A DNA stretch of 64,000 nt from positions 372,001-436,000 of the forward strand of contig NZ_CP045119.1 of the NCBI RefSeq assembly GCF_011492945.1, read 5' to 3'. Each line of letters begins with the position of its first letter. The stretch's first letter is position 1. This document shows, in pieces, positions 24,759-54,290 of the stretch. The position numbers were made by a program, and so were the translations under genes. This DNA comes from Rubrobacter tropicus (GTDB lineage: Bacteria > Actinomycetota > Rubrobacteria > Rubrobacterales > Rubrobacteraceae). Below the pieces are notes generated by a model. The model was not told the origin of the DNA. It saw only the letters and a list, made by a program, of their open reading frames with translations, and did not search any database.

Positions 24759-25690
24759 GATCCCTCCTTTGCGGGGATGCCGGGGAAGACGGCCCCCTTC
24801 TCCGTGGTCTCGGCCTCCGGGTAGTAACGGTCCAGCATCGAGAGCCCGATCTCGGCCCGCCTTACCCGCTCTCTTCCGAGTGCCACCGCGGTCGCCTCCA
24901 GGTGCGTCCCGCTCGGGTAGATGTTCGGGGCGTTGCGGAGGCCGAACTTGACGAAGACGGGCGAGGCCACCCTGACGAGGTCCGGGATCTCGTAGTGCCT
25001 GACGAACCCGCCGAAATCGTCCGGAACTTCCACATACACGTCGAGCGGGAGATCCGTGACGGCCCGGATCGCCGCCAACTGCGCGAGCGAGAGGTCGGTC
25101 GGCGTGTTGTAGGTACCTGCCCCGAGGTCCTCCATCGCCTTGACGGCCGCCGCGTTCGCGGCCGCGAGCTGCACGGAGACCTTGACGACGAGGTCCTCCG
25201 GCAACCCGCCCTTCGCCTTGAGGTCCCGCAAGACCCACAGCAGGCCCGCGTCCGCGACGAGCACGCCGCGAAGGCCCAGGCTCACGCCCCGGAGCACGTC
25301 TTCGAGGGCGTAGGCCAGCTGGTCCTGGCCCCTATGCTGGGCGCCGAGCACCCCGCCCGCGCTGGAGCCGGCGGAAGCGCCCGTCTCCCAGGAGGCCCGC
25401 GGGCCGACGAAGAGCGAGAGCTCCAGCCCCGACTCCCGCGCCATCGAGCACATCTCGAGGATCTCGGCGTCCGTGAGGAGCATGATGCCCGAGCCCTGGG
25501 AGACGCGGTGGAGCTGTACCTCGCGTTTCTCGGCCTCGTCGAGCACCGCTTCGAGGACGCGGGGGCCTTCGACGCTCGGGATCTCGACGCGGTACCGCGC
25601 CCCGTCCGGGAACCGTTTTTCGGTGTCGGGCAGATCGTAGAGGTCCTTGCCCGGCAACCCCAGGCCGGCCAGCAGTTCGCGCGCTCTCAT
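24755..25690 (-). CDS. Barrel protein of sugar-acid operons, U32-peptidase-like
   Basis: 311 residues without signal peptide or membrane segments. The sequence suggests a TIM barrel: RYRVEIPSVEGPRVLEAVLDEAE, LHRVSQGSGIMLLTDAEILEM, LELSLFVGPRASWETGASAGS, LRGVLVADAGLLWVLRDL, VKVSVQLAAANAAAVKAMEDLGAGTYNTPTDL, DVYVEVPDDFGGF. I recall homologues labelled U32 peptidase, but protease activity seems unlikely in this place. It starts 4 bases inside the GntR gene end and overlaps the dehydratase start, so it is made together with them. Possibly an aldolase, epimerase or lyase of the pathway; function not established. Confidence 0.65.
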   Translation of the reverse strand: MRARELLAGLGLPGKDLYDLPDTEKRFPDGARYRVEIPSVEGPRVLEAVLDEAEKREVQLHRVSQGSGIMLLTDAEILEMCSMARESGLELSLFVGPRASWETGASAGSSAGGVLGAQHRGQDQLAYALEDVLRGVSLGLRGVLVADAGLLWVLRDLKAKGGLPEDLVVKVSVQLAAANAAAVKAMEDLGAGTYNTPTDLSLAQLAAIRAVTDLPLDVYVEVPDDFGGFVRHYEIPDLVRVASPVFVKFGLRNAPNIYPSGTHLEATAVALGRERVRRAEIGLSMLDRYYPEAETTEKGAVFPGIPAKEGS

Positions 25691-26412
25691 GTGTTCTCCT
25701 CCCCGGTCTCCAACATCCCCTCCCTGATGGCCTCCTCGATGTCCCTCGCGGTGTTCGCGAGGTGCGAGCGCATCTCATCCCTCGCCCCATCCGCGTCGCC
25801 GGACTCTACGGCGGCGAGGATCCGCTCGTGCTCCCCGAGCGCCCGCCGCGCGTTTCCCGGGCGGGAGGCGCTGACCCGGCGGCTGGCCCTGAGCAGATCC
25901 ACCACGGGATCTAGCATCGTGAGCAGCACCCCGTTGCGCGCCGCCCGCGCCAGCAGCGCGTGGAAGGCGACGTCCGCGTCCACGTACCCCTCGGGCGCGT
26001 CGATGGACCCGCGCATCCTCTCCACCTGGACCCGCATCTCCTCCAGGTCCCCCGGACCTGCGCGCCCGGCAGCGAGGCCGGCGACCTCGACCTCCAGGAT
26101 GCCCCGCATCTCCAGAAGCTCCCACAACGTCTTGGGCTGGACCCTCAGCAACAGCCCCAAAGTGTCGCGCACGGCCCGCGGTTCTCCGCCGCTCACCACC
26201 GCGCCGCGGCCGTGCTCGATGCTGATGAGCCCGCGCGCCTCCACCAGATTAAGCGCCTCCCGAACCACGGTCCGGCTCACGCCGAGGCGCTCGCACAACT
26301 CGCGCTCCGGCGGAAGGCGCTCACCCGGCCGAAGACCGCCGGAGATCACCATGTCCAGGAGCTCCTCGGCCGCCCGGTCCCTGAGCCTCGTACGCTGGAT
26401 CTTGTCTTTCAC
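25687..26412 (-). CDS. GntR/FadR-family transcriptional regulator
   Basis: 241 residues. The N-terminal winged helix has LRPGERLPPERELCERLGVSRTVVREALNLVEARGL. The helical FCD effector domain starts near residue 95 (LWELLEMRGILEVEVAGLA) and carries candidate metal-binding His in YVDADVAFHALLARAA and LGEHERIL. It likely senses a sugar acid and represses its own operon plus the sugar ABC operon through the shared operator. The GTG at 26412 lies only 9 bases after the -10 element, so the mRNA may be leaderless. Confidence 0.92.
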   Translation of the reverse strand: MKDKIQRTRLRDRAAEELLDMVISGGLRPGERLPPERELCERLGVSRTVVREALNLVEARGLISIEHGRGAVVSGGEPRAVRDTLGLLLRVQPKTLWELLEMRGILEVEVAGLAAGRAGPGDLEEMRVQVERMRGSIDAPEGYVDADVAFHALLARAARNGVLLTMLDPVVDLLRASRRVSASRPGNARRALGEHERILAAVESGDADGARDEMRSHLANTARDIEEAIREGMLETGEENT

Positions 26413-26450: not shown

Positions 26451-26577
26451 ATAGGTTTCAGGCGTTGTAGAGAAGCGCCGCTGCTGATGCTATGCCCTTG
26501 GCAGAACGTAGTTGCGTAATCCGGCTGCGATGTCGCTCATCTTCTTTACCTGCAACCCGATGCCTGTAGCCTCATTA
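26449..26577. repeat. Word-repeat B5 (degenerate)
   Basis: AGGTTTCAGGCGTTG on the left and GCAACCCGATGCCTGTAGCC on the right are weak inverted word copies between the DeoR stop and the GntR promoter. Confidence 0.35.
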
Positions 26578-27333
26578 CAGGGAGGCGATTTCGAAGGGGA
26601 TTTCGTTTTCTTGGAGTTCCTGGATCTGGGCTTCGCTGACTTTGGCGTCCACTATTACGAGGTCGAAGTCGCTTAAGTGGGCGAGTCGGTGGAGGGCGAC
26701 TTTGTCGAATTTGGTGTGGTCCACGAGGAGGATGCGGCGTTTGGCCGAGTTCATCATGGCCCTTTTGCCGCGCATTATCTCCTGGTCCTGGTGGAGGGCG
26801 AAGCAGTCGGAGACGGCCGAGGTGGACATGAGGACGACGTCGGCGCGGACTACGGAGAGGGAGGCTTCGCAGACGGCGCCGCCGAAGGCTTCGAGGGCCG
26901 GCAGGTATTCGCCGCCGAGCATGATCAGGTCGACCCCCCTCAAACCGTGTAGCTCGTTCATCGCCATGACGAAGTTGGTTATGACGGTGATGGGGCTCTT
27001 CTCCGGCAACAGCCTCGCCGCCATGAGCGCCGTCGTGGACTCGTCGAGGATCACCGAATCGCCGGGCCGCACCTGGGCGGCCGCCGACCTCGCGAGCGCC
27101 TCTTTCTCCGCCGTCGCCGTCCTGAGCCTGTAGCGCACGCTGCTGTCGAACCGGCTCGTCGGCTGCGCCGTAACGTGCCCCCGCAGCTTCCGCAGCAGGC
27201 CCTGGCGCTCCAGCTCGTCCAGGTCGCGGTGGATCGTTATGAGGCTCACCCCGAAGAGGTCAGTCAGGTCCTTGATCCCGACAGATCCCTTCTCCAACAC
27301 GTACTCCGCCACCCGCGCCTGACGCTCCGCCAC
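26575..27333 (-). CDS. DeoR-family transcriptional regulator of the kinase cluster
   Basis: 252 residues from the GTG at 27333 (the frame is open to 27480, but that extension is Ser/Gly-rich and unlike the family; a TTG at 27366 is possible). The N-terminal helix-turn-helix is GSVGIKDLTDLFGVSLITIHRDLDELERQGLL. The C-terminal DeoR sensor has VILDESTTALMAARLL and MLGGEYLPALEAFGGAV with ADVVLMSTSAVSDCF. It is divergent from the CUT1 sugar transporter at 27716 and separated by a control region with two palindromes, so it is the likely repressor of that cluster, sensing a phosphorylated sugar. Confidence 0.88.
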   Translation of the reverse strand: MAERQARVAEYVLEKGSVGIKDLTDLFGVSLITIHRDLDELERQGLLRKLRGHVTAQPTSRFDSSVRYRLRTATAEKEALARSAAAQVRPGDSVILDESTTALMAARLLPEKSPITVITNFVMAMNELHGLRGVDLIMLGGEYLPALEAFGGAVCEASLSVVRADVVLMSTSAVSDCFALHQDQEIMRGKRAMMNSAKRRILLVDHTKFDKVALHRLAHLSDFDLVIVDAKVSEAQIQELQENEIPFEIASL

Positions 27334-27487
27334 CCGCCCGACACTACCCCTGCCAGACCCTTCTCCAGTCAACTCGAAGATCCCATACCCCCCTCCTACA
27401 CCACGCGACGACACCACGCAACAAGACGGACAAAACGATTGTACATGTCCGAGAATCGCACGTGTACCTTCGAGACGCAAGAGAAAA

Positions 27488-27504: not shown

Positions 27505-27534
27505 TTGACATGAGATTATTTCATCATTTACGAT
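27505..27534 (+). promoter_or_regulatory. Promoter of the CUT1 transporter/kinase operon
   Basis: Consensus -35 TTGACA at 27505-27510 and TACGAT at 27529-27534 (18-base spacer). The inverted repeat at 27511-27523 lies within the spacer, a position suited to repression. Confidence 0.6.
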
Positions 27535-27715
27535 AAGAATAGGAGTATAAGTTACGAGGCTAGGGTGAGCGGGTGCTGGCGGGAGGCGTTCGGGCTACCG
27601 GCGGAAGGTGGGTCGTGGGTTCGGGTTTCTCGTGAGCTTTTTCGGTAACCGAGGCCGACGGTTGGAGGGGACTCGATGGGCCGCTTCGTTTGGGTGGTCC
27701 GGGGAAGGAGAAGGG

Positions 27716-29116
27716 ATGCGGGAAGAGGGTATGGGGTTGCGCAGGATGCGGCGCAGGGACTTTCTGAGGGGGGTCGGGGCCGGGGCCGCGGCGCTTGGGC
27801 TGGCCGGTTGCGGGGTGGACTTCGCGCAGGAGCGGTCGGGCGGGCAGGATCCGTCCAAGGTCAAGGGCGAGTTCTCGTGGACGCGGGAGAAGGGCAAGAC
27901 CATCAACGTGCTCTTCGCCAAGCATCCGATGGCCGACTCGTTCATCAAGGAGCTCGGGAGCTTCGAGAAGAAGACCGGGATCAAGGTCCAGTACGACACG
28001 CTGCCCGAGGAGGAGTTCTTCCAGAAGCTCAGGACCGACCTCTCGACCGGCAAGGGCAACTACGACGCGTTCATGAACGGGCCGCCAAACAACTGGGAGT
28101 TCGCTGCCCCGGGCTGGAGCGAGCCGCTCGACGCCTACATCAACAACAAGGCGCTCACGAGCGCCGACTACGACCTCGACGACTTCTACCCGGCGGCGCT
28201 CGGGGTGAACAGGTGGCGCGGCAAGCTGTGGTCGATACCCGCCAACGAGGAGGGGTACTCGCTCTTCTCGCGGACGGACATTTTGGAGGAGGCCGGGATC
28301 TCGGCTCCCCAGACCTGGGACGAGCTCATAGCGGCCGTCAAGGAGGTCGACGGGAAGACCTTCGGCGGCAAGAAGGTGGACGGCTTCGTGGCGCGCGGGG
28401 ACAAGACCTTCCCGACCATCCAGTCAGGCTACAGCACTGCGTTCCTGGGGTACGGTGCCACGGATGTCGACGAGAACGGCAAGGTCGCCATCAACTCCCC
28501 CGAGGGCGTCGAGGCGACGGAGAAGTGGGCCGAGGTCATGGGCCACGCGCCCAACAACGTGGGCACCTTCACGTGGTACGAGGCCATGAACCACTTCAGC
28601 GCGGGGAACGCGGCGTTCTTTATCGACGCCGACCACATGTCCGAGGCCTTCGAGGACCCGACGGCGAGCGCCGTGGCCGGGAAGGTGGACTACGGGTTGC
28701 CGCCCGAGGGGTCGGCGGGAAGGATGGGGAACATCTGGCTCTGGTCGCTGGCGATGTCGGCGTCCTCAAAGAACAACATAGCGGCCTGGATCTTCCTTCA
28801 GTGGGCGACGACGAAAGAGCAGCTCGAAAAGGCCATCACCGAAGGGAACATCAACCCCACCCGCCAGTCGCTCGCCAACTCCGAGACCATGAAGGAGTAC
28901 ACCAAAGACTGGGGCTCCTACAACGAGACGTGGCAGAAGATCCTCTCCGACCACGCAGCCTGGAACTACATAAAGTCGCCCAAGTACCCGGCCTTCGGCG
29001 ACCGCTGGGCGCTCGCCATCCAGGAGATAGCCCTCGGCGGCGGGTCCGTGAAGGAGACGCTGGACGCGGCGGCGAAGGACATGCAGGAGATCTACGACTC
29101 GGCCAAGGGCTCGTAG
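27716..29116 (+). CDS. CUT1-type sugar ABC transporter binding protein (Tat lipoprotein)
   Basis: 466 residues from the ATG at 27716, which has GGAAGGAGAAGGG upstream; the longer frame from 27608 is leader. The signal RRMRRRDFLRGVGAGAAALGLAGC is a Tat-type lipoprotein signal. The mature part is a type 1 extracellular solute-binding protein: INVLFAKHPMADSFIKELGSFEKKTGIKVQYDTLPEEEFFQKL, WSIPANEEGYSLFSRTDILEEAGI, NAAFFIDADHMSEAF. It binds an oligosaccharide, polyol or similar ligand. First gene of the long plus-strand cluster. Confidence 0.92.
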   Translation: MREEGMGLRRMRRRDFLRGVGAGAAALGLAGCGVDFAQERSGGQDPSKVKGEFSWTREKGKTINVLFAKHPMADSFIKELGSFEKKTGIKVQYDTLPEEEFFQKLRTDLSTGKGNYDAFMNGPPNNWEFAAPGWSEPLDAYINNKALTSADYDLDDFYPAALGVNRWRGKLWSIPANEEGYSLFSRTDILEEAGISAPQTWDELIAAVKEVDGKTFGGKKVDGFVARGDKTFPTIQSGYSTAFLGYGATDVDENGKVAINSPEGVEATEKWAEVMGHAPNNVGTFTWYEAMNHFSAGNAAFFIDADHMSEAFEDPTASAVAGKVDYGLPPEGSAGRMGNIWLWSLAMSASSKNNIAAWIFLQWATTKEQLEKAITEGNINPTRQSLANSETMKEYTKDWGSYNETWQKILSDHAAWNYIKSPKYPAFGDRWALAIQEIALGGGSVKETLDAAAKDMQEIYDSAKGS

Positions 29117-29125
29117 GCCGGGGCC

Positions 29126-29989
29126 ATGAACCAGTCGCGACGGCTCCCGTACCTGCTGCTCCTGCCGGGCATAGCGCTGCTGCTCGCGGTGCTCTACCCG
29201 TTCCTGAGCGGGGTCTACTGGAGCTTCACGGACTTCGACCTCACGCTCGGCCAGAACCCCGCCTTCACCGGCCTGAGCAACTACGTCGAGGCGTTCAGGC
29301 CGAGCGGGGACGGCCTGCACTCGATCCTCATCACCTTCGCCTACGCCGCCCTGGCTGTCACGGTGCAGCTGTTGCTCGGGTTCGGGGTCGCGCTGCTGCT
29401 GACGAGGGAGGGGGCGCACATAAAGGTCTACAGGGCGCTGATCGTGCTGCCGCTCCTCATGCCGCCGGTGGTGGCGACCATGATGTGGCGCGTCATGATG
29501 ACGCCAGACGGGGTCCTCAACTACATGCTCAGCTGGGTTTACCTGCCGCCTTTCGATTGGCTCGGCTCGACGAGCACGGCGCTCTTCTCGGTGGTCTTGA
29601 TAGATACCTGGATCTACACGCCCTTCGTCATCCTGATCCTGCTCGCCGGGATGCAGTCCATCCCGACGGAGGTCCACGAGGCCGCCAGGGTGGACGGCGC
29701 GAGCTACGCAAGAGAGGTGTGGAACCTCGTAGTGCCCCTCCTGCGGCCGTTCTTCGTAATCGTGATCGTGTTCAGGGGCATCGACTCGCTGAAGATGTTC
29801 GACATCATCTACACGGCGACCAGGGGCGGCCCGATAGACGCGACGATGAACCTTCACGTCCAGTCGTACTTCACGGGCATAAGGGCGCTCGACATCGGAA
29901 GCTCGATGACGTACCTGGTCGTGCTCTGGGTCCTCTGCTACGCCCTCGCGTTCTTCTTGCTCCGCGCCAGGAGAGGGAGGTTGGCCTGA
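29126..29989 (+). CDS. CUT1-type sugar ABC transporter permease (MalF-like)
   Basis: 287 residues, six membrane helices beginning at LPYLLLLPGIALLLAVLYPFL. The coupling loop is EVHEAARVDGASYAREVWNLVVPLLRP. It starts 9 bases after the binding-protein stop. Pairs with the next gene to form the translocation pore. Confidence 0.92.
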   Translation: MNQSRRLPYLLLLPGIALLLAVLYPFLSGVYWSFTDFDLTLGQNPAFTGLSNYVEAFRPSGDGLHSILITFAYAALAVTVQLLLGFGVALLLTREGAHIKVYRALIVLPLLMPPVVATMMWRVMMTPDGVLNYMLSWVYLPPFDWLGSTSTALFSVVLIDTWIYTPFVILILLAGMQSIPTEVHEAARVDGASYAREVWNLVVPLLRPFFVIVIVFRGIDSLKMFDIIYTATRGGPIDATMNLHVQSYFTGIRALDIGSSMTYLVVLWVLCYALAFFLLRARRGRLA

Positions 29990-29990
29990 A

Positions 29991-30842
29991 GTGTTAGGAA
30001 AAGGCAAGACCAGCGCCAGCCGGGCGAAGCGCAGGAACGGCATCCTCGCGAACGTGGCGTTGCTCGCCTATACGGCGTTCGCGTTGTTTCCCCTGTTCTG
30101 GATCTTCCTCATGTCCCTCAAGGTGCAGCGGGACGTTATAGCCACGCCCCCCAAGTTCATCTTCACCCCGACGCTCGCCAACTACGCCGAGGTCCTCTCG
30201 CGGCCCGACTTCCTGACGCCGTTCAAGAACTCCGTAATAGTCACCTTCGGGGCGTTGTTCTTGTCGGCGCTCATCGCGTTGCCGGCGGCGTACGCGCTGG
30301 CGAGGATGGAGTTTCGGGGCAAGGAGGATCTGGCGTTCGCGTTCCTCTCCTTGCGGTTCGCGCCGGAGCTGATCATATTGCTTCCCCTGTTCGTGATCTA
30401 CCAGTCGTTCGGGCTCTACGACACGTACATCGGCCTTATCCTGATCTACCAGCTCATCACCTTTCCCCTGATGGTCTGGATGATGAGGAGCTTTCTGGAG
30501 GACGTGCCCAGGGAACTCGAAGAGGCGGTCCAGATAGACGGCGGGAGCTGGTTCACTTCCTTCCGCATGATTATCACGCGCATAGCGTTGCCGGGGCTCG
30601 CGGCCAGCTGCGTGCTGTCTTTTATTTACGCCTGGAACCACTTCGTCTTCGCGCTGGTGCTGGCTTCGCAGAGGACCCAGGTAATTACAGGGGGTTTGCT
30701 CCAGTTCATCTCCTTCGAGCAGATACAGTGGGGGTCCATGGCGGCCGGCGTGATGCTGGCTATCGTCCCCGAGTTCGTCATCGCGGTGTTCGCGCTGCGG
30801 TACATGATCCGGGGCCTCACGGCCGGCACGGTAAAGGGTTAA
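29991..30842 (+). CDS. CUT1-type sugar ABC transporter permease (MalG-like)
   Basis: 283 residues from the GTG at 29991, one base after the previous stop. It has six helices, coupling loop EEAVQIDGGSWFTSFRMIITRIALPGL and the C-terminal MIRGLTAGTVKG typical of MalG-type proteins. No ATPase gene is present in this cluster, so the importer must borrow an ATPase encoded elsewhere (MsmK/MalK-type sharing is known for CUT1 systems). Confidence 0.92.
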   Translation: MLGKGKTSASRAKRRNGILANVALLAYTAFALFPLFWIFLMSLKVQRDVIATPPKFIFTPTLANYAEVLSRPDFLTPFKNSVIVTFGALFLSALIALPAAYALARMEFRGKEDLAFAFLSLRFAPELIILLPLFVIYQSFGLYDTYIGLILIYQLITFPLMVWMMRSFLEDVPRELEEAVQIDGGSWFTSFRMIITRIALPGLAASCVLSFIYAWNHFVFALVLASQRTQVITGGLLQFISFEQIQWGSMAAGVMLAIVPEFVIAVFALRYMIRGLTAGTVKG

Positions 30843-30927
30843 GGTAGGCGTCTGGTGCGGGCACGCGAGGGGAGGCAGGCGATGACGCGGGGAGGGCGGG
30901 CAAGGTCGTGATCTCCTGGGAGAACGG

Positions 30928-32403
30928 GTGACCTCGAACGGCACCGACGCGCCGGTAACCGTCGGCATAGACCTCGGCACCCAGAGCGTCAGGGTCGTGC
31001 TGGTGGAAGAAGACGGCGCGGAGGTGAGCTCGGGCAGCGCCCCACTCACGAGCGAGCGTTCGGACGAGGTGCGCCACGAGCAGGACCCCGAGTCCTGGTG
31101 GGAAGCCGTGGGCGAGGCCGCGCGGGAGGCGACGAAAGACCTCGGCGGCAGGCCCGTGGACGGCCTCGCCATATGTTCCACCTCGGGCACGATCCTTCTG
31201 GCGGATAAAGAGGGGCGCCCGCTGACGCCCGCGATCATGTACAACGACGGCCGCGCCGCCAAAGAGGCCGAAACGGCCCAGGAGGTCGGGCACGAGCTCT
31301 GGGACTCGCTCGGGTACAAGATCAGCGGCTCCTACGCCCTCCCGAGGTTGTTGTGGCTACTCGAACACGGCTTCGGCGAAGGTGCCTCCAGGATGATGCA
31401 CCAGGCGGACTTCGTGGCCTCACGCCTTGCCGGGGAACCCGTCGGCACCGACTGGAGCCACGCCCTGAAGACGGGCTGGGACCTCGTAAACGAGCGTTGG
31501 CCCGAAGGCGTGATGGAGCACCTCGGCGTCCCGGTAGGCCTCCTGCCGCCGGTCGTGCGTCCCGGCACCGACCTCGGAGAGGTCTCCGCGCGGGCGGCCG
31601 AACACACCGGCATCCCCGCGGGCACCCCGATCCGGGCGGGAATGACGGACAGTTGCGCGGCCCAGATTGCCGCCGGAGCCCTGGAGCCCGGGCGCTGGAA
31701 CTCGGTCCTCGGCACGACGCTCGCCCTGAAGGGTGTCGCCCCGAAGCTCCTGCGCGACCCGGCCGGCGTCGTCTACTGCCACCGCCACCCCGACGGCGGC
31801 TGGCTCCCCGGCGGCGCCTCCAGCACCGGCGCCGGCGTCATCCCCGAGATGTTCCCCGACGCCGACCTCCAAGCCCTGAACGGGGAGGCGGAGAAGAGGG
31901 GGCCGTCGAGCGCGGTCTTCTACCCGCTGGCGACGAAGGGCGAGCGTTTCCCCTTCTCTGCGCCGGAGGCCCGAAGCTTCTGGGAGGGCGAGCCGGAGGA
32001 CGAGGTGGACCGCTACAGGGCCGTGCTCGAAGGGGTGGCTTTCGTCGAGAGGCTCTGTTTCGCCCACCTCGACTCGCTCGGGGCTGAGGTGTCGGGGCCG
32101 GTGAGCAGCACGGGGGGCGGGGCCAGGAGTCGTCTGTGGTCCCAGATCCGGGCCGACGTCCTCGGGATGCCCGTGATCGTGCCCCGTTCTTCTGAAGGTT
32201 CTGTCGGAATGGCGATCCTGGCGCGCGCCGGCTCCGGCCCCGTCGCCGAGACCGCGACGAGCATGAGCGGGACGAAGTGGGAGTTCGAGCCCGAAGGCTC
32301 CAACGGCGGGCTCGCGGAGAACTTCGAACGCTTGGCGGACGCCTTCGTCGAGCGGGGCTTTATACACGAGGATCTGGCCCACCGGGCGAGGCTGGACGGA
32401 TGA
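30928..32403 (+). CDS. FGGY-family carbohydrate kinase 1, xylulokinase-like
   Basis: 491 residues, both FGGY lobes complete. The phosphate loop is GIDLGTQSVRVVLVEEDG. Further segments are ICSTSGTILLAD, YNDGRAAKEA, RAGMTDSCAAQIAAGAL, GTTLALKG and, in the C-terminal lobe, SSTGGGARSRLWSQIRADVLGMPV. It phosphorylates a ketose, polyol or sugar acid with ATP. GTG start. Its stop overlaps the phosphatase start as ATGA. It is the first of three unlike FGGY kinases in 7 kb, suggesting either several substrates or sequential specialisation. Confidence 0.9.
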   Translation: MTSNGTDAPVTVGIDLGTQSVRVVLVEEDGAEVSSGSAPLTSERSDEVRHEQDPESWWEAVGEAAREATKDLGGRPVDGLAICSTSGTILLADKEGRPLTPAIMYNDGRAAKEAETAQEVGHELWDSLGYKISGSYALPRLLWLLEHGFGEGASRMMHQADFVASRLAGEPVGTDWSHALKTGWDLVNERWPEGVMEHLGVPVGLLPPVVRPGTDLGEVSARAAEHTGIPAGTPIRAGMTDSCAAQIAAGALEPGRWNSVLGTTLALKGVAPKLLRDPAGVVYCHRHPDGGWLPGGASSTGAGVIPEMFPDADLQALNGEAEKRGPSSAVFYPLATKGERFPFSAPEARSFWEGEPEDEVDRYRAVLEGVAFVERLCFAHLDSLGAEVSGPVSSTGGGARSRLWSQIRADVLGMPVIVPRSSEGSVGMAILARAGSGPVAETATSMSGTKWEFEPEGSNGGLAENFERLADAFVERGFIHEDLAHRARLDG

Positions 32404-33041
32404 CGGAGCCTGTACGTCTCCTGTTGGCCCGCCACGGCCGGACGGAGTGGCACCGCGACAACCGCTACGTGAGCCGGACGGACATCGGCATAGACGAGAC
32501 CGGCCGCGAGCAGGCCAGGACGCTCGCCCGGCGCGCGAAGCAGGAATCCCCGTCTCTCGTGCTGAGCTCGCCGCTCAAGCGGGCGCTGCTCACCGCCGGG
32601 CCCGCCGCGGAGGCCTGCGGCCTAAAGCCGGAGACGGACGACCGGCTGAGGGAGCTGGACTTCGGGGAGTGGGAGGGCAAGACTTTCGATGAGATCCGGT
32701 CGGAGGACCCGGAGCGCGCCGAACGGTTCCTCGAATCCGCCGAGCACGGCTTCCCTGGCGGCGAGCCGCTGGAGGACGGGGCGAATAGAATCCTCGCGGT
32801 CTTCGAGGACCTGCGCCTCTCGCGCGCCGGGGCGACGGTCCTCGTGGTGGCCCACAACACGCTGCTCAGGCTCGGGCTGTGCGCGGCGCTCGGCGTCCCG
32901 CTCGGGGAGTATCGGCGGCGGCTGCCGCGCATCGTCAACGGCGCCGTGAGCGAGATGCGCTTCGGCGTGGGCGGGGGCGCGCTGTACTCCTTGAACGACC
33001 TTGCACACGCGGAGAACACGAAAAGGGAGAACGTCAGATGA
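32400..33041 (+). CDS. Histidine phosphatase (phosphoglycerate-mutase fold)
   Basis: 213 residues. The catalytic motif is LLARHGRTEWH with phospho-His, then LSSPLKRALLTA with the pocket Arg, LRELDFGEWEGKTFDEI with the acid/base Glu, and VVAHNTLLRLG with the second His. It probably dephosphorylates a sugar phosphate. It is translationally coupled at both ends by ATGA overlaps, so it is a true member of the kinase operon. A phosphatase next to kinases might remove dead-end or toxic phosphorylated side products (inference). Confidence 0.9.
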   Translation: MTEPVRLLLARHGRTEWHRDNRYVSRTDIGIDETGREQARTLARRAKQESPSLVLSSPLKRALLTAGPAAEACGLKPETDDRLRELDFGEWEGKTFDEIRSEDPERAERFLESAEHGFPGGEPLEDGANRILAVFEDLRLSRAGATVLVVAHNTLLRLGLCAALGVPLGEYRRRLPRIVNGAVSEMRFGVGGGALYSLNDLAHAENTKRENVR

Positions 33042-34069
33042 AGATCCTGGTCGCGGGGGACCGCCACGTACTGAGCCGGCTGATGGTGCAGGCCCTGAAA
33101 AAGGAGCTTGGGGATAGCCTCGACGTCACGACCATAGACTTCGACTGGCCGATGGAGCCGCACGTGGACGTGGCCGAGGTCAGGGAGGCGGCCGGCGGCG
33201 AGGAGGAGATCGTCGCCGCCGGTCGGGGCGCGGAGGTCATAGTCACGCAACTGGCCCCGATCACGCGGAAGGTGCTGAACTCCCTCCAGGACCTCAAGCT
33301 CGTGGTCGTGACGCGCGGAGGACCCGTCAACGTGAACGTCGAGGCCGCCACCGAGAACGGCGTCATCATAGCCAACGCCCCGGGACGCAACGCCCCGGCC
33401 GCCGCCGAGTACGCCCTCGGGCTCATGCTCGCCGCCATGAAGCGCATCCCGGACGCCCACGCCTCCCTCAAGGGCGGCGAGTGGCGCGGCGAGTTCTACG
33501 CCTACGAGGAGAACGGCATCGAGCTGGACGGCTCGACCGTCGGGCTGGTGGGTTTCGGGGCCATAGGCAGCCGGGTGGCGAAGGTCCTTGCCGCGTTCGG
33601 GGCCGAGGTGCTGGTCCACGATCCTTTCGTCGAAGACGGACCGGTCGTGAAGGCGGGTGGGCGCAAGGCCGGGCTCGACGAGTTGCTCGAAAGGTCGAAG
33701 GTCGTCAGTTTGCACGCCCGCCTCAGCGACGAGACGCGAGGCATGATCGGGGCCGAGCAGATCGGAAAGATGCCGGAGGGCTCCGTCCTCGTCAACACGG
33801 CCCGCGGGGGGCTGCTGGACTACGACGCCCTCTGCGACGCCCTGGAATCCGGCCAGCTCGGGGCCGCCGCGCTGGACGTCTACGAGGAGGAGCCGCCGCC
33901 TGAGGGGTCGCGGCTCTTCGCCGCGCCGAACCTCGTGCTCTCGCCCCACATAGCGGGTGCCACCAGGGAGACGGCGCACCGGGCCGCGGATATCGCCGCC
34001 GCGGAGGTCGGGCGGTACGCGCGGGGGGAGAAGATGGAGAACGTCGTCAACGGGGAGGCGGTCGGCTAG
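33038..34069 (+). CDS. D-isomer-specific 2-hydroxyacid dehydrogenase, PGDH-like
   Basis: 343 residues. The Rossmann loop is GLVGFGAIGSRVAKVL at about residue 170. Catalytic residues are Arg in VLVNTARGGLLD, a Glu in the ALDVYEEEP region and His in LSPHIAGAT. The unusually short C-terminus excludes the ACT-containing serine-biosynthetic SerA type. It reduces a 2-keto acid or oxidises a D-2-hydroxy acid (or a phosphorylated form). ATG overlaps the phosphatase TGA, with AAGGGAG upstream. Confidence 0.9.
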   Translation: MKILVAGDRHVLSRLMVQALKKELGDSLDVTTIDFDWPMEPHVDVAEVREAAGGEEEIVAAGRGAEVIVTQLAPITRKVLNSLQDLKLVVVTRGGPVNVNVEAATENGVIIANAPGRNAPAAAEYALGLMLAAMKRIPDAHASLKGGEWRGEFYAYEENGIELDGSTVGLVGFGAIGSRVAKVLAAFGAEVLVHDPFVEDGPVVKAGGRKAGLDELLERSKVVSLHARLSDETRGMIGAEQIGKMPEGSVLVNTARGGLLDYDALCDALESGQLGAAALDVYEEEPPPEGSRLFAAPNLVLSPHIAGATRETAHRAADIAAAEVGRYARGEKMENVVNGEAVG

Positions 34070-34083
34070 AGGCCGGTCCGGTC

Positions 34084-35532
34084 ATGAACGCCATCGGCAT
34101 AGACGCGGGCACCACTGGCCTGAAGGCGGTCGCGGTCAACCCCGACGGGGAGATCGTCCGCGAGAGGACGGTTCGTTACCCCACCAGGCTCGCCGGGCTC
34201 GGGGCCGAACAGGACGCCCGGGCCTGGTGGCTGGCGGTGACCGACGCGCTGCCGGGGGTGGTCGCGGGGGAGCCCGTCTCGGGCGTCGCCGTGACGTGCC
34301 AGGCCCCCACCCTCGTCTGCGTGGACGGGGACGCCGAGCCGCTCGGGCCGGCGCTCACCTGGATAGACCGCCGCGCCCTTCGGGAGACGCGGGAGATCTC
34401 CGCCGCCACACAGCCGACCCGCAACCCGCCGGACCCGTACTTCGCCACAGGCAAGCTCCTGTGGCTCGCGCGCAACCGCCCGGAGGAGTTGGAGAACGCC
34501 CGCGCGGTCCTGTGCGTCAACGGCTTTCTGGTGGCGCGGCTGACGGGGGAGTTCACCCTCGACGAGACCACCGCCGGGCTCTTTCAGGGGTGGGACGGCG
34601 AGTTCGACCCGGCGCTCCCAGGCCTCGTCCCGCTGGATCTGCTCCCCCGGGTTCGGCCCGCGTTGCAGATCGCCGGTGAGGTCTCAGGGGCTGCGGCGGT
34701 CGCCACGGGCCTGCCCGAGGGCACGCCGGTCGCCCACGGCGGGATAGACGCCGTCGGCGCGGCCCTTGAGGCCGGCATCTTCGGCCCGGGAGACGGGCTC
34801 GTGGAGATGACCGGCTTCTCCACCGTGGCCATCACCGCCGCCGAACGCGGGACGCGCGTGCCGGGCATGATCCACACGCGCCACGGCGTCGGCGGCAAGG
34901 ACCTCATCCTCGCCGCGATGGTGACCGCCGGCGCCGTGACCGACTGGGGCGTGAAGCTGACCGGCTTCGAGAACCCTGCTGGCTTCGACGCGAACGCCTC
35001 CGAAAAGATCGGGGAGCGCCCCGGCAGGCTCCTCATGGTCCCCGCCTTCGCCGGCGAGAGAACCCCCACCTGGGACGTAACCGCCCGCGGCGCCGTGGTC
35101 GGCCTCGACCTCGACGTGGACGCGGGAGACTTTGCAGTCGCCATCTACGAGGGCACGGCTTTAGGCCTCGGGGATAACTTCGGGCGTCTGCGGGAGGTGC
35201 TCGGCGACCTCAGCCCCGTGCGATCCGTCGGCGGCGGCTCGAAGAGCGAGGGCTGGACCCGGATAAAGGCCGATGTGCTCGGCGTCCCGGTCACGGTGCC
35301 GCGCCTGGGCCACGGCGCGGCGGCGGGGGCCGCGATGCTCGCCGGCCTGGCCACCGGGCTGTGGCCCGACGAGGCGTCGGTGAAGGCGCTGTCCAACACG
35401 GAGGGACGGACGTTCGAGCCCGACCCGCGGATGACCGCGCGGTACGCCGGGCGCCTGGAGCTCTACAAGAACCTGCAAAGCATGCTTCCCCCCATCACGC
35501 AGGCCCTGCAAGAAGGGCGTGGAGGGCGGTAG
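34084..35532 (+). CDS. FGGY-family carbohydrate kinase 2
   Basis: 482 residues. The phosphate loop is GIDAGTTGLKAVAVNPDG; then VTCQAPTLVCVDGD, TWIDRRALRETREI, catalytic Asp in VAHGGIDAVGAALEAG, and C-terminal FAGERTPTWDVTARGAVVGL and SVGGGSKSEGWTRIKADVLGVPV. Divergent from kinases 1 and 3 (different active-site neighbours), so it is not a recent duplicate. It starts 14 bases after the dehydrogenase. The substrate is a ketose, polyol or sugar acid; I cannot choose. Confidence 0.9.
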   Translation: MNAIGIDAGTTGLKAVAVNPDGEIVRERTVRYPTRLAGLGAEQDARAWWLAVTDALPGVVAGEPVSGVAVTCQAPTLVCVDGDAEPLGPALTWIDRRALRETREISAATQPTRNPPDPYFATGKLLWLARNRPEELENARAVLCVNGFLVARLTGEFTLDETTAGLFQGWDGEFDPALPGLVPLDLLPRVRPALQIAGEVSGAAAVATGLPEGTPVAHGGIDAVGAALEAGIFGPGDGLVEMTGFSTVAITAAERGTRVPGMIHTRHGVGGKDLILAAMVTAGAVTDWGVKLTGFENPAGFDANASEKIGERPGRLLMVPAFAGERTPTWDVTARGAVVGLDLDVDAGDFAVAIYEGTALGLGDNFGRLREVLGDLSPVRSVGGGSKSEGWTRIKADVLGVPVTVPRLGHGAAAGAAMLAGLATGLWPDEASVKALSNTEGRTFEPDPRMTARYAGRLELYKNLQSMLPPITQALQEGRGGR

Positions 35533-35567
35533 CGGTTGGGGAATGCGACCCGGAGGAGGAGACGCCC

Positions 35568-36353
35568 GTGAACATGCCTGTGAACGCGCCAAGCGGTACG
35601 CGACTGGACGAGCTGGTGGGCCTGTCCAGGTCCCTCGGAAGGCCCGAGAGGGACCTTGTGATCCTGGGCGAGGGCAACACCTCGGTCCGCCTGGACGACG
35701 AGACGTTTCTCGTCAAGGCCAGCGGCACGTCGCTGGCCGAGGCGAGGGAGGGGAGCTTCGTCAGGATGGATCTCGGGCGCACGCTGGCGCTCCTGGACCT
35801 CGTGGACCCGTCGGACGGCGAGCTGGGCGAGGCGTTGATGGCGGCCCGGAGCGAAGGGGAGGGGGACTTGCGCCCCTCCATAGAGGCGGTGATGCACGCG
35901 CTCTGCCTTACGGAGGGGGAGGCGACCTTCGTGGGGCACACCCACCCGACCGCCGTGAACGCCGTGCTGTGCTCCGACCGGGCGGGTTCGCTCTCCGAGG
36001 GCGCGATCTTCCCTGACCAGGTCGTGGTGCTCGGCCGGCACCCCTTGTACTTGCCCTACGTGGACGTGGGGCTTCCCCTGGCCCACGCCCTGCTCGATGC
36101 CCTGCGGGCGCACCGGCGGCGCGTCGGAGCGGCCCCGAAGACCATCTACCTCCAAAACCACGGGCTCGTCGCCCTGGGGCAGTCCGCGGGAGGGGTGGAA
36201 CAGGTCACCACGATGGCGGCCAAGCACGCCCGCATCATGTCCGGGGTGCTCGCCGCCGGGGAACCGGTCTACCTGACCGCCGGGCAGGCCGACAGCCTTG
36301 ATGCCCGCCCGGACGAAGAGTACCGCCGACGGGTGATCCAGGGCGACCGTTGA
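35568..36353 (+). CDS. Class II aldolase/adducin-family protein
   Basis: 261 residues. The GTG at 35568 follows GGAGGAGGAG; ATG at 35574 is an alternative. The class II aldolase fold shows LGEGNTSVRLDDETFLVKASGT (phosphate-binding region), a Zn site with Glu in SIEAVMH and His in VGHTHPTAVNAVL, and the third His in YLQNHGLVALGQS. It cleaves a sugar 1-phosphate or phosphorylated keto acid by retro-aldol, or isomerises it. It lies between kinase 2 and kinase 3, so it probably acts on the product of one of them. Confidence 0.88.
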   Translation: MNMPVNAPSGTRLDELVGLSRSLGRPERDLVILGEGNTSVRLDDETFLVKASGTSLAEAREGSFVRMDLGRTLALLDLVDPSDGELGEALMAARSEGEGDLRPSIEAVMHALCLTEGEATFVGHTHPTAVNAVLCSDRAGSLSEGAIFPDQVVVLGRHPLYLPYVDVGLPLAHALLDALRAHRRRVGAAPKTIYLQNHGLVALGQSAGGVEQVTTMAAKHARIMSGVLAAGEPVYLTAGQADSLDARPDEEYRRRVIQGDR

Positions 36354-36444
36354 CCGCCGAGTACCGGGGAAACGGGCCCGCAAAGGACGCGAGAAGGATC
36401 GGAGGGCGTCGTGACCGGAGAGAGACCAAGGAGATGATGCGCAG

Positions 36445-37890
36445 ATGATACTCGGTATAGACCTCGGCACCTCGGTCGTGAAGGCCGCGGCCTTCTCGCG
36501 GGACGGGGATGTCCTCGCGACCGAGGGCCGCGGCGTAAAGCTTTACAACCCCCGCCCCGAGTGCTCGGAGCAGGACATCGACGAGACGATGGAGGCGCTC
36601 GGCGCGGTCGTCCGGGCCGTGCTGGAGCAGACGGACGAGCCCGTGGAGGCCGTCGGCCTCACGGGCCAGGGCGACGGCCTCTGGCTGCTGGACGAACGCG
36701 GCCGCCAGGTGCGCCGCGCCGCGACCTGGCTCGACGCCAGGGCGAACCCGATAGTCGAGGAGTGGACGGCCTCGGGCGTCTTCGAGGAGCATTTCCGCAG
36801 GAACGGCAACGTCACCTTCCCGGGCGCGCCCTCGGCCATCATGGCCGCCCTCAAGCGCGACGAACCGGAATCGCTCGAGAAGGCCGCCACCGCCGGCTAC
36901 TGCAAGGACGTAGTCCTCCAGCGCCTAACCGGCGTGCGGGCCACCGACGCCTCAGACGCCTCCGAACCGTTCATGGACCACTCGACCCGCCAGTACGACG
37001 CCAGCCTGTTGGAGCTCTTCGGCCTGGAAGACTACGAGCGCCTGCTCGCGCCCATAGACGAATCGCCCGGAGAGGCCCGTCCCCTCGGCAAAGCGGGGGC
37101 GGAACTGACGGGGCTTCCGGAGGGGACGCCGGTCCACAACGGCCCGTTCGACCTTCCGGCGACGGCGATGGGCGCGGGCGTCACGCGGCTGGGGGACGGC
37201 GTCATCATCGTCGGCACCACCCTCGCCTGCGAGGTACTGACCGACCGCGTGGAGACCGGCGGGGAGCCGGGGGGGCAGACCCTGTGCGCGCTGGAGCCCG
37301 ACCGCTGGCTCAGGGCGATGCCGGCGATGGTCGGCACCGCCTCCATGGACCTGACCCTGAACCTGCTCCGCTCCGAGCACGCGGAGATAGAGGACTTCCT
37401 GGCCGAGAGCCCGCCTGGCGCAAACGGGGTGGGCGTCCTGCCGTTCTTCTCGCCCTCGGGCGAGCGGGCGCCCTTCGTCGAGCCCCACGCCCGCGGGCAG
37501 CTCTCCGGCATGACCCTGGGCACCACCCGCTCCGACGTGGTCAGGGCAGTGGCCGAGGGCGTCGGGTACGCGGCGAAGCACTGCCTGGCGGCGGCGGGCC
37601 TGAAGGGTGAACTGTCCATCTGCGGTGGCGGGGCGGAGTCCCGGGCCTGGCGGCAGGTGCTCTCCGACGTGCTCCAGCAGCCCCTCAAGGTCGCCCGCAG
37701 GCCCGAAGTCGGCGCCAGGGGCGCGGCCATGGGGGCCATGATCTCACTCAAAATAGACTTCGACCACGACGCCTGGACCCGCGCGGAAGACGAGGTGCAA
37801 CCGGGCGAAGACCTCGCCGAGCTCTACGAAGAAGGCTTCGAGCACTACCTGGCGAGGGTCGATTCTGCCCGCGATCTGTGGGGGAGATAG
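36445..37890 (+). CDS. FGGY-family carbohydrate kinase 3
   Basis: 481 residues. The phosphate loop is GIDLGTSVVKAAAFSRDG; then GLTGQGDGLWLLDE, ATWLDARANPIVEEW, VHNGPFDLPATAMGAG with the catalytic Asp, and the closing SICGGGAESRAWRQVLSDVLQQPL. This pattern resembles the erythritol/L-xylulose kinase branch, but that is tentative. It is preceded by a 91-base gap with GGAGA-type sites. A word-repeat element (A3) follows, separating it from the last aldolase gene. Confidence 0.9.
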   Translation: MILGIDLGTSVVKAAAFSRDGDVLATEGRGVKLYNPRPECSEQDIDETMEALGAVVRAVLEQTDEPVEAVGLTGQGDGLWLLDERGRQVRRAATWLDARANPIVEEWTASGVFEEHFRRNGNVTFPGAPSAIMAALKRDEPESLEKAATAGYCKDVVLQRLTGVRATDASDASEPFMDHSTRQYDASLLELFGLEDYERLLAPIDESPGEARPLGKAGAELTGLPEGTPVHNGPFDLPATAMGAGVTRLGDGVIIVGTTLACEVLTDRVETGGEPGGQTLCALEPDRWLRAMPAMVGTASMDLTLNLLRSEHAEIEDFLAESPPGANGVGVLPFFSPSGERAPFVEPHARGQLSGMTLGTTRSDVVRAVAEGVGYAAKHCLAAAGLKGELSICGGGAESRAWRQVLSDVLQQPLKVARRPEVGARGAAMGAMISLKIDFDHDAWTRAEDEVQPGEDLAELYEEGFEHYLARVDSARDLWGR

Positions 37891-38110
37891 CCATCAGCTT
37901 TCAGCCATCAGCTTTTTGTGGTCCTGGCCGGGGGTTGGGGTATGGGCGGGACGCTTCGGGGGAATGCTGAGAGAAAGAAGACCGACAGTACGGTTGGCAA
38001 GGGTTGGAGCTGCCTTATTAATGCCAGCGGCATTCAACCGTCCCAGGCAAAGCTGACAGCTGAAAGCGGAGGCCGAGAGGCCGGAGTGGGCTGACCGCTG
38101 ACGGCTTCGA
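37888..38110. repeat. Word-repeat A3 (GTCAGC/GCTGA family), two inverted arms
   Basis: The left arm GCCATCAGCTTTCAGCCATC, AGCTTTTTG and right arm AAAGCTGACAGCTGAAAGC, GGAGGCC, GGGCTGACCGCTGACGGC flank about 130 bases. A perfect palindrome AATGCC-AGC-GGCATT sits at 38020-38034 just inside the right arm. Located inside the cluster between kinase 3 and the aldolase. Confidence 0.65.
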
Positions 38111-38124
38111 AAAGGAGGAACGGA

Positions 38125-38781
38125 TTGAAGTACCAGGAGCTACGCGAAGAGGTGACGAGGATCTCGCGCCGGATGGGTGACTCCGGCCTCGTCCGCACGA
38201 CCGCAGGCAACGTCAGCGCCCGCACCCCGGACGGGGACGTCCTCATAACCCCGAGCGGGCTGCCCTACGAAGACCTGGAGGCCGGGGATCTCGCCCTCGT
38301 CGACCTCGACGGGAACCTCCTGGAGGGCCCGCTGGAGCCATCGACGGAGGTCCCCATGCATACCGGCATCTACCGCCAGAGGCCGGGCGTCGGCGGCATC
38401 GTTCACACCCACGCGCCCTACTCGACCGCGCTCGCCTGCCTGGGCCTCGAAATACCCGCGGTCCACTACATGCTCGCGGCCCTCTCCGAAGAGGGCCGCG
38501 TCCCCCTGGCGCCGTACGCCACCTACGGAACCGAGGAGCTGGCCGGATACGCGAGCGAGACGCTCGGCGGGACCCACTCCGCCTGCCTTCTCCAGAACCA
38601 CGGCACCATCACCGTGGCGGAGACCGCGACCAAAGCCTACTCCCTTACCGAGATCCTCGAAGAGATGGCCGAGCTCTACTACCGGACCCGCCTCGCCGGC
38701 GACCCGATCATCCTCGGCCCCGACCGCATAGCCGAGACCCGCGCCAAGATAGCCGGCTACGGACAAGCTAAACGCTCGTAG
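38125..38781 (+). CDS. Class II aldolase, fuculose-1-phosphate-aldolase-like
   Basis: 218 residues from the TTG at 38125 with AAAAGGAGGAACGGA upstream. Zn aldolase features: TTAGNVSART, ITPSGLPYEDL, Glu in PSTEVPMHTGIY, HTHAPYSTALA with two His, and QNHGTITV with the third His. The size matches L-fuculose-1-P/L-rhamnulose-1-P aldolases, which give dihydroxyacetone phosphate plus an aldehyde. It is the last gene of the three-kinase cluster and has its own strong ribosome site after the repeat. Confidence 0.88.
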   Translation: MKYQELREEVTRISRRMGDSGLVRTTAGNVSARTPDGDVLITPSGLPYEDLEAGDLALVDLDGNLLEGPLEPSTEVPMHTGIYRQRPGVGGIVHTHAPYSTALACLGLEIPAVHYMLAALSEEGRVPLAPYATYGTEELAGYASETLGGTHSACLLQNHGTITVAETATKAYSLTEILEEMAELYYRTRLAGDPIILGPDRIAETRAKIAGYGQAKRS

Positions 38782-40325: not shown

Positions 40326-40356
40326 ATTGCTCGAACAATCATAAATTGTCAGACAA
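40326..40356 (+). promoter_or_regulatory. Palindromes overlapping the DeoR start
   Basis: ATTGCTCGAACAAT (40326-40339, arms ATTG/CAAT) and TTGTCAGACAA (40346-40356, perfect about its centre), the latter starting at the TTG initiation codon. The AT-rich stretch with TAGAAT (about 40314-40319) is a possible -10. Likely an autoregulatory site. Confidence 0.45.
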
Positions 40357-41131
40357 ACGCGCAGATTTACCGGGCCAGCGGCAGCAGCGGATAGCTGAGC
40401 TCGTCCGCGAATCGGGGAGCGTCACGGTGTCGAGGTTGGAGGAGGACCTCGGCATCTCTTCGGCGACCGCGAGGCGGGATCTTGCGGTGCTCGAGAGGCA
40501 GGGCAAGGTAAAGAGGACCCACGGCGGGGCCGTCATGCCGGGGTTCACGCAGCACGAGGACTCCTTTCAGCAGCGGCTGGGGGAGGCGGTGGAGGCGAAG
40601 GGGCGGCTGGCGCGGGTCGCGGCGGCGATGCTCGAGGCGGACGAGACCGTGTTCGTGGATTCGTCCACCACGGCTTACTACGCGGCGCGGCGCATCCTCG
40701 CCGACGCGCCCAGCGTGACGTGCCTCACCAACCTGGTGCCGGTCATGGACCTGTTCTCCACGGCGGACCCGTCCGGCGCGAGCATGGTCGGGGTCGGCGG
40801 CATCTTCAGGGCGCTGACGCTCTCCTTCGTGGGACCGTGCGCCGTGCGCACGGTCGAGTCTTACCTGGCGGACAGGGCGTTCGTGAGCGTCAAGGGGATC
40901 ACGGCGGGGGGGCACCTCACGGACGCGGACCCGCTGGAGGCCGAGGTCAAGCGTGCCATGATCCGGCAGTCAGACAAGCCCGTGCTGCTGGTGGACGGCA
41001 GGAAGTTCGAGCGCCGGGGCATGAGCGTAATAGGTCACGTCTCCGAGGTCTCCCTGGTGTTGACCGCCGACGCGCACCCTTCGCACGTGCGGGCGTTGGA
41101 GGACCTGGGGGTGGCCGTGAAGAGCGTGTAG
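40346..41131 (+). CDS. DeoR/GlpR-family transcriptional regulator of the rhamnose operon
   Basis: 261 residues. Helix-turn-helix QRQQRIAELVRESGSVTVSRLEEDLGISSATARRDLAVLERQGKVKRTHGGAV. DeoR sensor domain with VFVDSSTTAYYAARRI, VGVGGIFRALTLSFVG and FVSVKGITAGGHLTDADPLEAEVKRAMI. The TTG at 40346 lacks a clear ribosome site, so the transcript may be leaderless or start further in. It is the first gene of the plus-strand rhamnose cluster. DeoR-type regulators in such clusters sense rhamnulose or its phosphate (inference). Confidence 0.85.
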   Translation: MSDKRADLPGQRQQRIAELVRESGSVTVSRLEEDLGISSATARRDLAVLERQGKVKRTHGGAVMPGFTQHEDSFQQRLGEAVEAKGRLARVAAAMLEADETVFVDSSTTAYYAARRILADAPSVTCLTNLVPVMDLFSTADPSGASMVGVGGIFRALTLSFVGPCAVRTVESYLADRAFVSVKGITAGGHLTDADPLEAEVKRAMIRQSDKPVLLVDGRKFERRGMSVIGHVSEVSLVLTADAHPSHVRALEDLGVAVKSV

Positions 41132-41214
41132 GAGGAGCGCGCAAGGCCGGCTGGGGAGCCGGATCGCGGGAAAGAGAAGTCGAGGGTGTATGCCCGGGAG
41201 GATTTATCTGAGTC

Positions 41215-42588: not shown

Positions 42589-42635
42589 ACGATGGCACGA
42601 TCCGTCACCCACGAACGGCGACAGGGAGAACGAGG

Positions 42636-45359: not shown

Positions 45360-45502
45360 CCGCCTCTCAAAGATTCCACAGCGCGTACGGGACAACGCCG
45401 GAGGGGCACTTCACGGACACCGACCCCCTGGGCCGCACGATCCGCGTCCGCGGGGTTACACTGGTACTGGCGGCCGAGGTGCGGTGTGTTTAGGAATCTT
45501 TC

Positions 45503-45865
45503 GTGAGCGAAGGCGCCAGAGTATGGATCGTGCCCGACGGGTTCATCCCGGCGGAGAGCACGGGTTCGCAGCAGAGCCACGAGGCGATCTGCGTGCTCAA
45601 CACGTCGGCGGAGCGGGCGCGGCTCTCCGTCTCTTTCTACTTCGAGGACCGGGACCCGGTCAAAGACGTCGAGGTGATCGTCCCGCCGGAGCGCACCAGG
45701 CACATACGGACTGACGAGATAGACGGCGTCGAGATCCCGCGCGGCGTGCCGTACGCGGTCCGGGTCGAATCGAGCGTGCCCGTCACGGTGCAGGTCTCCC
45801 GGATGGACACCACCCAGCCGGCCCTCTCGCTCATGACCGCCATGGCCTATCCGGTGGAGCGATGA
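45503..45865 (+). CDS. ASRT-family (sensory rhodopsin transducer-like) protein
   Basis: 120 residues, single beta-rich domain. The sequence VWIVPDGFIPAESTGSQQSHEAICVLNTSAERARLSVSFYFEDRDPV..HIRTDEIDG..IPRGVPYAVRVESSVPVTVQVSRMDTTQPALSLMTAMAY matches the Anabaena sensory rhodopsin transducer family along its whole length. No rhodopsin gene is nearby. Family members are also found in carbohydrate operons, where their role is not established; sugar binding or anomer handling is a guess. GTG start with AGGA upstream; between the rhamnosidase and epimerase. Confidence 0.85.
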   Translation: MSEGARVWIVPDGFIPAESTGSQQSHEAICVLNTSAERARLSVSFYFEDRDPVKDVEVIVPPERTRHIRTDEIDGVEIPRGVPYAVRVESSVPVTVQVSRMDTTQPALSLMTAMAYPVER

Positions 45866-54289: not shown

Positions 54290-54290
54290 A

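Follow-up and report, generated by a model that had tools for sequence, protein, structure and literature searches.

Which compound is taken up and degraded by the products of a ten-gene cluster in Rubrobacter tropicus, and by which route? The cluster lies in a stretch of 64,000 nucleotides (positions 372001-436000 of a 4.58 Mb genome), called the window here, and it encodes a carbohydrate importer, three FGGY kinases, a phosphatase, a dehydrogenase and two class II aldolases. A preliminary description regarded it as the strongest candidate in the window for a new metabolic system. That judgment is too strong, and the cluster is better viewed as a variant of polyol kinase/DHAP-aldolase catabolism. 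The features relied on here are read from sequence, namely gene content, protein families, catalytic residues, the clade of the third kinase, conserved neighborhoods and a conserved promoter.

The question reaches beyond this species. A core of this kinase and the dehydrogenase, with or without an aldolase, recurs in three distant prokaryote groups, where its genes are annotated as FGGY kinase, 2-hydroxyacid dehydrogenase and class II aldolase, and one substrate assignment would annotate many loci together. Such an assignment would also explain the second ery-like locus of nodulating Sinorhizobium and show whether an acid-handling dehydrogenase family has shifted to another substrate.

Organization and regulation of the cluster

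All ten genes lie on the + strand, and the shorthand used here follows their order: SBP (solute-binding lipoprotein), permeases 1 and 2, K1, HP (histidine phosphatase), DH (dehydrogenase), K2, A1, K3 and A2, where K and A denote kinases and aldolases. These genes and a divergent DeoR gene were confirmed as open frames in the order originally given, and the family of every non-permease gene is backed by Pfam. The view that they form one catabolic unit rather than a random pile also holds up, given that the genes are co-directional and that their content and order are kept in one relative locus in Rubrobacteraceae (L010) and largely kept in another (L011), both of which were used for comparison. 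Subsets of the genes recur in other orders and phyla, and the grouping is more than chance. The cluster is probably an inducible sugar or sugar-alcohol catabolic operon, and a conserved one. Within Rubrobacteraceae its distribution is patchy, with A1 orthologs (at least 73%) in six of the sampled genomes, the window genome counted.

The promoter that had been proposed is a sigma-70-type element (TTGACA-18-TACGAT; 27505-27534, + strand) that is conserved in both relative loci: about 37 bases are identical in L010 and the element is recognizable in L011, which makes three Rubrobacteraceae with the window included. The promoter pattern has one match in the region versus 0.6 expected by chance. 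Control by DeoR is probable, and the cluster has a divergent gene (26575-27480, - strand; probable start near 27429) for a DeoR/GlpR-family regulator (Pfam DeoRC and HTH_DeoR) and a TGA-N7-TCA inverted motif that overlaps the promoter as a candidate operator. The regulator has 44% identity to the DeoR of a Sinorhizobium locus (L059) and 40% to its counterpart in the ery locus of R. leguminosarum (L085).

Several 4-base overlaps between genes had been described, but only two are present, at the K1/HP (ATGA, 32400-32403) and HP/DH (ATGA, 33038-33041) junctions. The remaining junctions are gaps of 1-91 bases, except for the K3-A2 gap of 234 bases. Between K3 and A2 lies a dispersed repeat (37889-38070, + strand; inverted arms of 22 nt), which is extraneous to the pathway and has about 40 further partial copies genome-wide at 78-96% identity, mostly of one stretch of about 57 bases. 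In L010 the K3-A2 gap lacks this repeat and is only 54 bases, so A2 probably was in the operon ancestrally.

Two other regions of the window can be mentioned. At 23595-26412, on the - strand and divergent from the cluster, lie genes for a GntR-like regulator, a weakly U32-like protein of 311 amino acids and an enolase-superfamily dehydratase-like protein; the first two are kept beside the cluster in L010, and the L011 stretch stops at deoR. At 40346-56552 are found a second DeoR, an MFS transporter, an alpha-L-rhamnosidase-like ORF, a RhaB-clade kinase (46804-48318) and a 694-aa aldolase/SDR-like ORF, and this region looks like one for rhamnose catabolism.

The importer

The gene for SBP (27608-29116, + strand; Pfam SBP_bac_1) likely starts at 27716 or 27731, ahead of an RRDFLRG...LAGC signal. 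The nearest solved relatives of the protein, 4rya and 5iai, are two proteins of which one binds D-mannitol (PMC12718374) and the other is ribitol-bound (PMC8468352). Permease 1 (29126-29989, + strand) and permease 2 (29991-30842, + strand), both of the CUT1 type, have 34-38% and 43-45% identity, respectively, to their counterparts in rhizobial K3-DH-A2 loci and L011. The CUT1 importer named in the preliminary description is present as a binding protein and two permeases, but no ATPase gene accompanies them in the window, whereas L011 carries two. Other ABC ATPases are encoded elsewhere in the genome (39-43% identity) and could serve the importer, which would then be powered by a shared ATPase.

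Three divergent kinases

K1, K2 and K3 have 27-31% mutual identity and none passes an NCBIfam equivalog cut-off, in keeping with the earlier description of three unlike FGGY kinases. Trees were built with E. coli XylB, LyxK, AraB, FucK, RhaB, GlpK and LsrK and with EryA from four ery loci. K3 (36445-37890, + strand) and its relatives group with EryA, a clade of polyol kinases (support 97/96), and this clade is nested in a larger one (100/100) that also holds LyxK and other DH-linked kinases. Grouping K3 without EryA was rejected at p-AU 1e-6, for a group that was defined after viewing the first tree. K3 shares 33-35% identity with EryA and 30% with XylB, and it falls outside the narrow clade that EryA of the four ery loci forms. 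The closest K3 relative beyond actinobacteria (55%) is found in Shinella sp. WSC3-e (L060), where it has no neighboring DH and lies near genes for E1/E2 dehydrogenase subunits, lipoyl synthase, GlpD and a class II FBP aldolase.

K1 (30928-32403, + strand) is D-ribulokinase-like. Its best solved relative is SePSK (5htn, 198 bits), which phosphorylates D-ribulose (PMC4880283), and it forms a separate clade with the K1 proteins of Streptomyces and rhizobia. K2 (34084-35532, + strand) was not placed in any clade, and a search for its relatives returned none that were close outside Rubrobacteraceae. Its use as a conserved anchor was abandoned: apart from one short segment at 51%, outside matches are at most about 34% identical and mostly K1- or K3-type genes, which indicates that K2 is lineage-specific. 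The DH/K2/A1 triplet, whose neighborhood had been recommended for study, thus proved to be a peculiarity of Rubrobacteraceae. A role in the AI-2 (Lsr) system was likewise discarded, as the best score with the LsrK equivalog (PRK10939) is 135 bits (K1) versus a cut-off of 528.

Aldolases, dehydrogenase and phosphatase

A2 (38125-38781, + strand) is a FucA-type class II aldolase. Alignment to 6btd and 1fua indicates that it retains the FucA catalytic and phosphate-site residues (TAGN, PSxE, HxH, HYM, HG and C-terminal YG positions). Its best NCBIfam model is ribulose-1-phosphate aldolase (NF053831; 186.5 bits, below the cut-off of 300), and the model scores are 186 bits for this aldolase, 177 for FucA and 121 for 3-oxo-tetronate-4-phosphate decarboxylase. 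A1 (35568-36353, + strand; Pfam Aldolase_II, 1.6e-20) is RhaD-like, with E106, H124, H126 and H198 invariant in seven aligned sequences. Both proteins have the features of a DHAP ketose-1-phosphate aldolase (Glu in PSxE, zinc HxH and a second His), and A2 also has the C-terminal Tyr of class II DHAP aldolases. FucA and RhaD can join DHAP and formaldehyde to form erythrulose-1-phosphate, which is processed by EryC, LerI and DerI (PMC10733421).

DH (33038-34069, + strand) is an NAD-type protein of the D-2-hydroxyacid dehydrogenase family (Pfam 2-Hacid_dh). Residue D195 and the catalytic residues R256, E285 and H304 do not vary among 13 aligned sequences, which come from actinobacteria, alphaproteobacteria and haloarchaea, and Asp195 implies NAD as the cofactor. 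These sequences have an RGG-type loop where the family normally has a GxGxDN carboxylate-binding loop. The alignment also took in SerA and GhrB of E. coli and the genome's own SerA, and the loop was placed there without a gap; set against the PGDH motif, it is presumably shortened by about two residues.

DH, earlier labeled a PGDH-like dehydrogenase, belongs to a separate FGGY-linked subfamily. An FGGY kinase adjoins DH in 22 of the 23 loci fetched with it. A SerA-like role in serine biosynthesis was rejected on a score of 256 bits versus a cut-off of 454 (TIGR01327) and on the presence of an FGGY gene, not serine genes, as the neighbor in the loci examined. Formate dehydrogenase (FDH) activity was dismissed because the hydroxyacid-dehydrogenase Glu is kept. 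A proposed substrate phosphate site at the invariant Arg228 was also dropped, since the PGDH counterpart of this residue presumably sits at the cofactor.

This subfamily is the most interesting element of the cluster. It might have left 2-hydroxyacid chemistry to become an NAD-dependent dehydrogenase for polyol phosphates (or sugar phosphates) in place of the flavin enzyme EryB, in which case kinase, DH and aldolase would form a stand-alone polyol pathway in Actinomycetota, Alphaproteobacteria and haloarchaea; we regard this as unlikely. Finally, HP (32400-33041, + strand) is a branch 1 histidine phosphatase (Pfam His_Phos_1, 7e-53), and its nearest solved relative is phosphoserine phosphatase 1.

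Related loci in other lineages

Comparison among loci shows that two gene groups are widely conserved, K3-DH-A2 and A1-K1-phosphatase. The former recurs in rhizobia, and A1 lies beside K1 and a phosphatase also in other actinobacteria and in the rhamnose loci of rhizobia. These recurrent neighborhoods make it plausible that two kinase/aldolase pairs exist, as had been suggested, and they favor the pairs K3-A2 and K1-A1 over K2-A1. K1, phosphatase, DeoR, DH and K3 are found together in Streptomyces, Amycolatopsis and Prauserella. The loci of the latter two genera have an extra HAD protein, DhaKL and RpiB, and L011 has its two ATPases, HAD and RpiB, all missing from the window cluster.

Two rhizobial loci, L059 of Sinorhizobium and L065 of S. 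meliloti Ak57, combine a sugar-binding regulator, a CUT1 importer and its two ATPases, K3, DH and A2 with an EryB homolog, A1-like protein, K1, HAD phosphatase, EryC homolog, DeoR, TpiB and RpiB. The EryB of this rhizobial cluster is 67% identical to the ery-locus gene and its EryC has about 68% identity with ery-locus homologs, and the rhizobial version is embedded in an erythritol-type locus. This setting, the grouping of K3 with EryA and the identities of 40-44% between DeoR proteins all argue against the earlier separation of the cluster from the erythritol scheme. In a survey of ery loci, S. fredii was noted to have an additional eryR-tpiB-rpiB copy, a possible xenolog (PMC3599248). We infer that this copy is probably an L059-type cluster, because NGR234 carries the DH and EryC homologs of that locus.

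The aldolase that accompanies DH differs among lineages. It is FucA-type in rhizobia and roseobacters and, judged by inspection of its sequence, DhnA/LsrF-like in some Rubrobacteraceae. On haloarchaeal plasmids (L062, L069) the operons read fba-FGGY-DH, and a class II FBP aldolase takes the place of FucA. Since DHAP is involved in the reactions of all these aldolase types, ketose-1-phosphate cleavage is suggested as the common step. The Streptomyces sets (K1, HP, K3 and DH) have no aldolase beside them, and hence the locus does not require one. The recurrent partner genes belong to tetrulose/pentulose phosphate chemistry. In three roseobacter loci (L063, L064, L067), DH-A2-K3 is accompanied by three CoA-transferases, a molybdopterin S/N-oxide reductase and a thiamine-diphosphate enzyme that bears the annotation acetolactate synthase. 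These surroundings fit none of the schemes proposed below. Literature searches returned no description of a kinase/2-hydroxyacid dehydrogenase/aldolase cluster.

A proposed pathway and its rivals

The best explanation, to which we would give an even chance, is an inducible operon that serves to import a small linear polyol or ketose and to degrade it through an EryA-type kinase and ketose-1-phosphate cleavage. We infer the substrate, the order of steps, the DH reaction, the role of HP and the pairing of kinases with aldolases from the features above. The substrate most likely would have four to five carbons, and up to six. It would be brought in by the importer with its polyol-type binding protein, and a terminal hydroxyl would be phosphorylated by K3 in the manner of erythritol kinase. 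The phosphorylated polyol would be converted to a ketose-1-phosphate by DH or by GlpD encoded elsewhere (two GlpD-like genes are found in the genome, with 39% and 31% identity), and A2 would yield DHAP and a short aldehyde. A second arm, K1 (or K2) with A1, might handle a related ketose (D-ribulose, for example), and HP may dephosphorylate an ester that is either an intermediate or a dead end. No L011-type RpiB was found in the window genome, making aldol cleavage a likelier exit than isomerization to erythrose-4-phosphate.

Several observations favor this polyol pathway. K3 is in a strongly supported clade with the EryA proteins of four ery loci, and EryA of S. meliloti serves adonitol and L-arabitol as well (PMC3599248). 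Both nearest solved relatives of SBP bind polyols, and the rhizobial cluster combines the same CUT1-K3-DH-A2 set with EryB, EryC, DeoR, TpiB and RpiB. The alignment of A2 with FucA across catalytic residues and the co-occurrence of DH with three unrelated types of DHAP aldolase point to the cleavage step. The resemblance of K1 to SePSK and the recurring A1-K1-phosphatase neighborhoods are consistent with the second arm. Against the polyol pathway, equivalog cut-offs are not reached by any of the enzymes, K3 shares only about 34% identity with EryA and lies beyond the narrow EryA clade, the window cluster has no EryB, EryC or RpiB, and the Streptomyces versions have no neighboring aldolase. Furthermore, DH keeps the catalytic Arg-Glu-His of 2-hydroxyacid dehydrogenases, which favors an acid substrate.

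This last point speaks for a sugar-acid pathway, a doubtful contender, in which K3 (or K2) would phosphorylate an aldonic or keto-aldonic acid, DH would interconvert 2-hydroxy and 2-oxo acid phosphates, and the class II aldolases would act as a retro-aldolase or decarboxylase. Members of the DH family of the KguD/PdxB type carry out such interconversions, and R256, E285, H304 and the NAD-associated Asp195 are present in 13 of 13 aligned sequences. LyxK shares the superclade of K3 and has relatives named L-xylulose/3-keto-L-gulonate kinase in some records, and the aldolase-free Streptomyces sets could send a phospho-aldonate directly to the pentose phosphate pathway. However, A2 scores closer to ribulose-1-phosphate aldolase and FucA than to the decarboxylase, the relatives of SBP are polyol binders, the carboxylate loop of DH is presumably short, and the cluster has no aldose dehydrogenase, lactonase or DUF1537 kinase.

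With three divergent kinases and two aldolases at hand, K1, K2 and K3 might instead be separate kinases for D-ribulose and other ketoses, with A1 and A2 as their aldolases and HP clearing wrong esters. DH would then act downstream on an aldehyde-derived hydroxy- or oxo-acid at the level of glyoxylate, glycolate, lactate or hydroxypyruvate. The likeness of K1 to a D-ribulose kinase and the best model of A2 suit such a module, but the operon has neither a ketose-making isomerase nor an aldehyde dehydrogenase, and the DH-FGGY linkage holds even where the class II aldolase is absent; this arrangement as a whole seems quite improbable. Least credible, at the level of a slim chance, is a degenerate or redundant accessory island with no coherent pathway in this species. 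The importer ATPases that are absent relative to L011, the repeat inserted between K3 and A2 and the patchy family distribution could be read in this way. Yet all frames are intact, catalytic residues are retained, the promoter footprint is present in three species, and the other ABC ATPases of the genome could stand in.

Comparison with known systems

Among pathways that share ketose-1-phosphate aldolase chemistry with the cluster are those for L-fucose (FucK-FucA) and L-rhamnose (RhaB-RhaD), as well as the haloarchaeal ribulose-1-phosphate pathway (PMC9700705). The cluster differs from all three in having no isomerase or R15P enzymes, in kinases that are not orthologous, and in a DH that has no counterpart there. 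For fucose and rhamnose, no isomerase is found among the cluster genes, and scores are 65-88 versus 471 bits for FucK, 136 versus 400 for FucA and 39 versus 568 for RhaD-ADH; likewise, the cluster genes include no R15P isomerase of the haloarchaeal type. The D-apiose scheme (FGGY apulose kinase and aldolase), which we take to require an apiose isomerase or dehydrogenase in the locus, finds no isomerase family among the cluster genes. The four-carbon acid sugar pathway (aldolase-DUF1537; PMC10580937) shares a dehydrogenase, a kinase, a class II aldolase-fold enzyme and a DeoR regulator with the cluster, whose kinase is FGGY rather than DUF1537, whose dehydrogenase is of another family, and which has no OtnI-type isomerase.

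The closest known systems are the erythritol loci of Rhizobium and Brucella (eryABCD, eryR-tpiB-rpiB) and the S. meliloti locus for erythritol, adonitol and L-arabitol with mptABCDE (PMC3599248). In common with these, the cluster has an EryA-clade FGGY kinase, a carbohydrate ABC importer and a related DeoR, and fucA1 of S. meliloti encodes a FucA-like aldolase, as does A2. In contrast, the window has no EryB, EryC, EryD, TpiB or RpiB between 26575 and 38781, adds DH, K1, HP, K2 and A1, and is expected to end in aldol cleavage to DHAP and not in isomerization to erythrose-4-phosphate. The second eryR-tpiB-rpiB copy of S. fredii, a locus only partly noticed earlier, for which the literature searches returned no functional study, and probably of the L059 type, has homologs of K3, DH, A2, K1 and DeoR, an A1-like protein and the same type of importer. 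L059-type clusters differ in that EryB, EryC, TpiB and RpiB are present, a HAD phosphatase replaces HP, and K2 is missing. Overall, the cluster is recognizably akin to erythritol/pentitol and FucA-type catabolism and is not a categorically new pathway.
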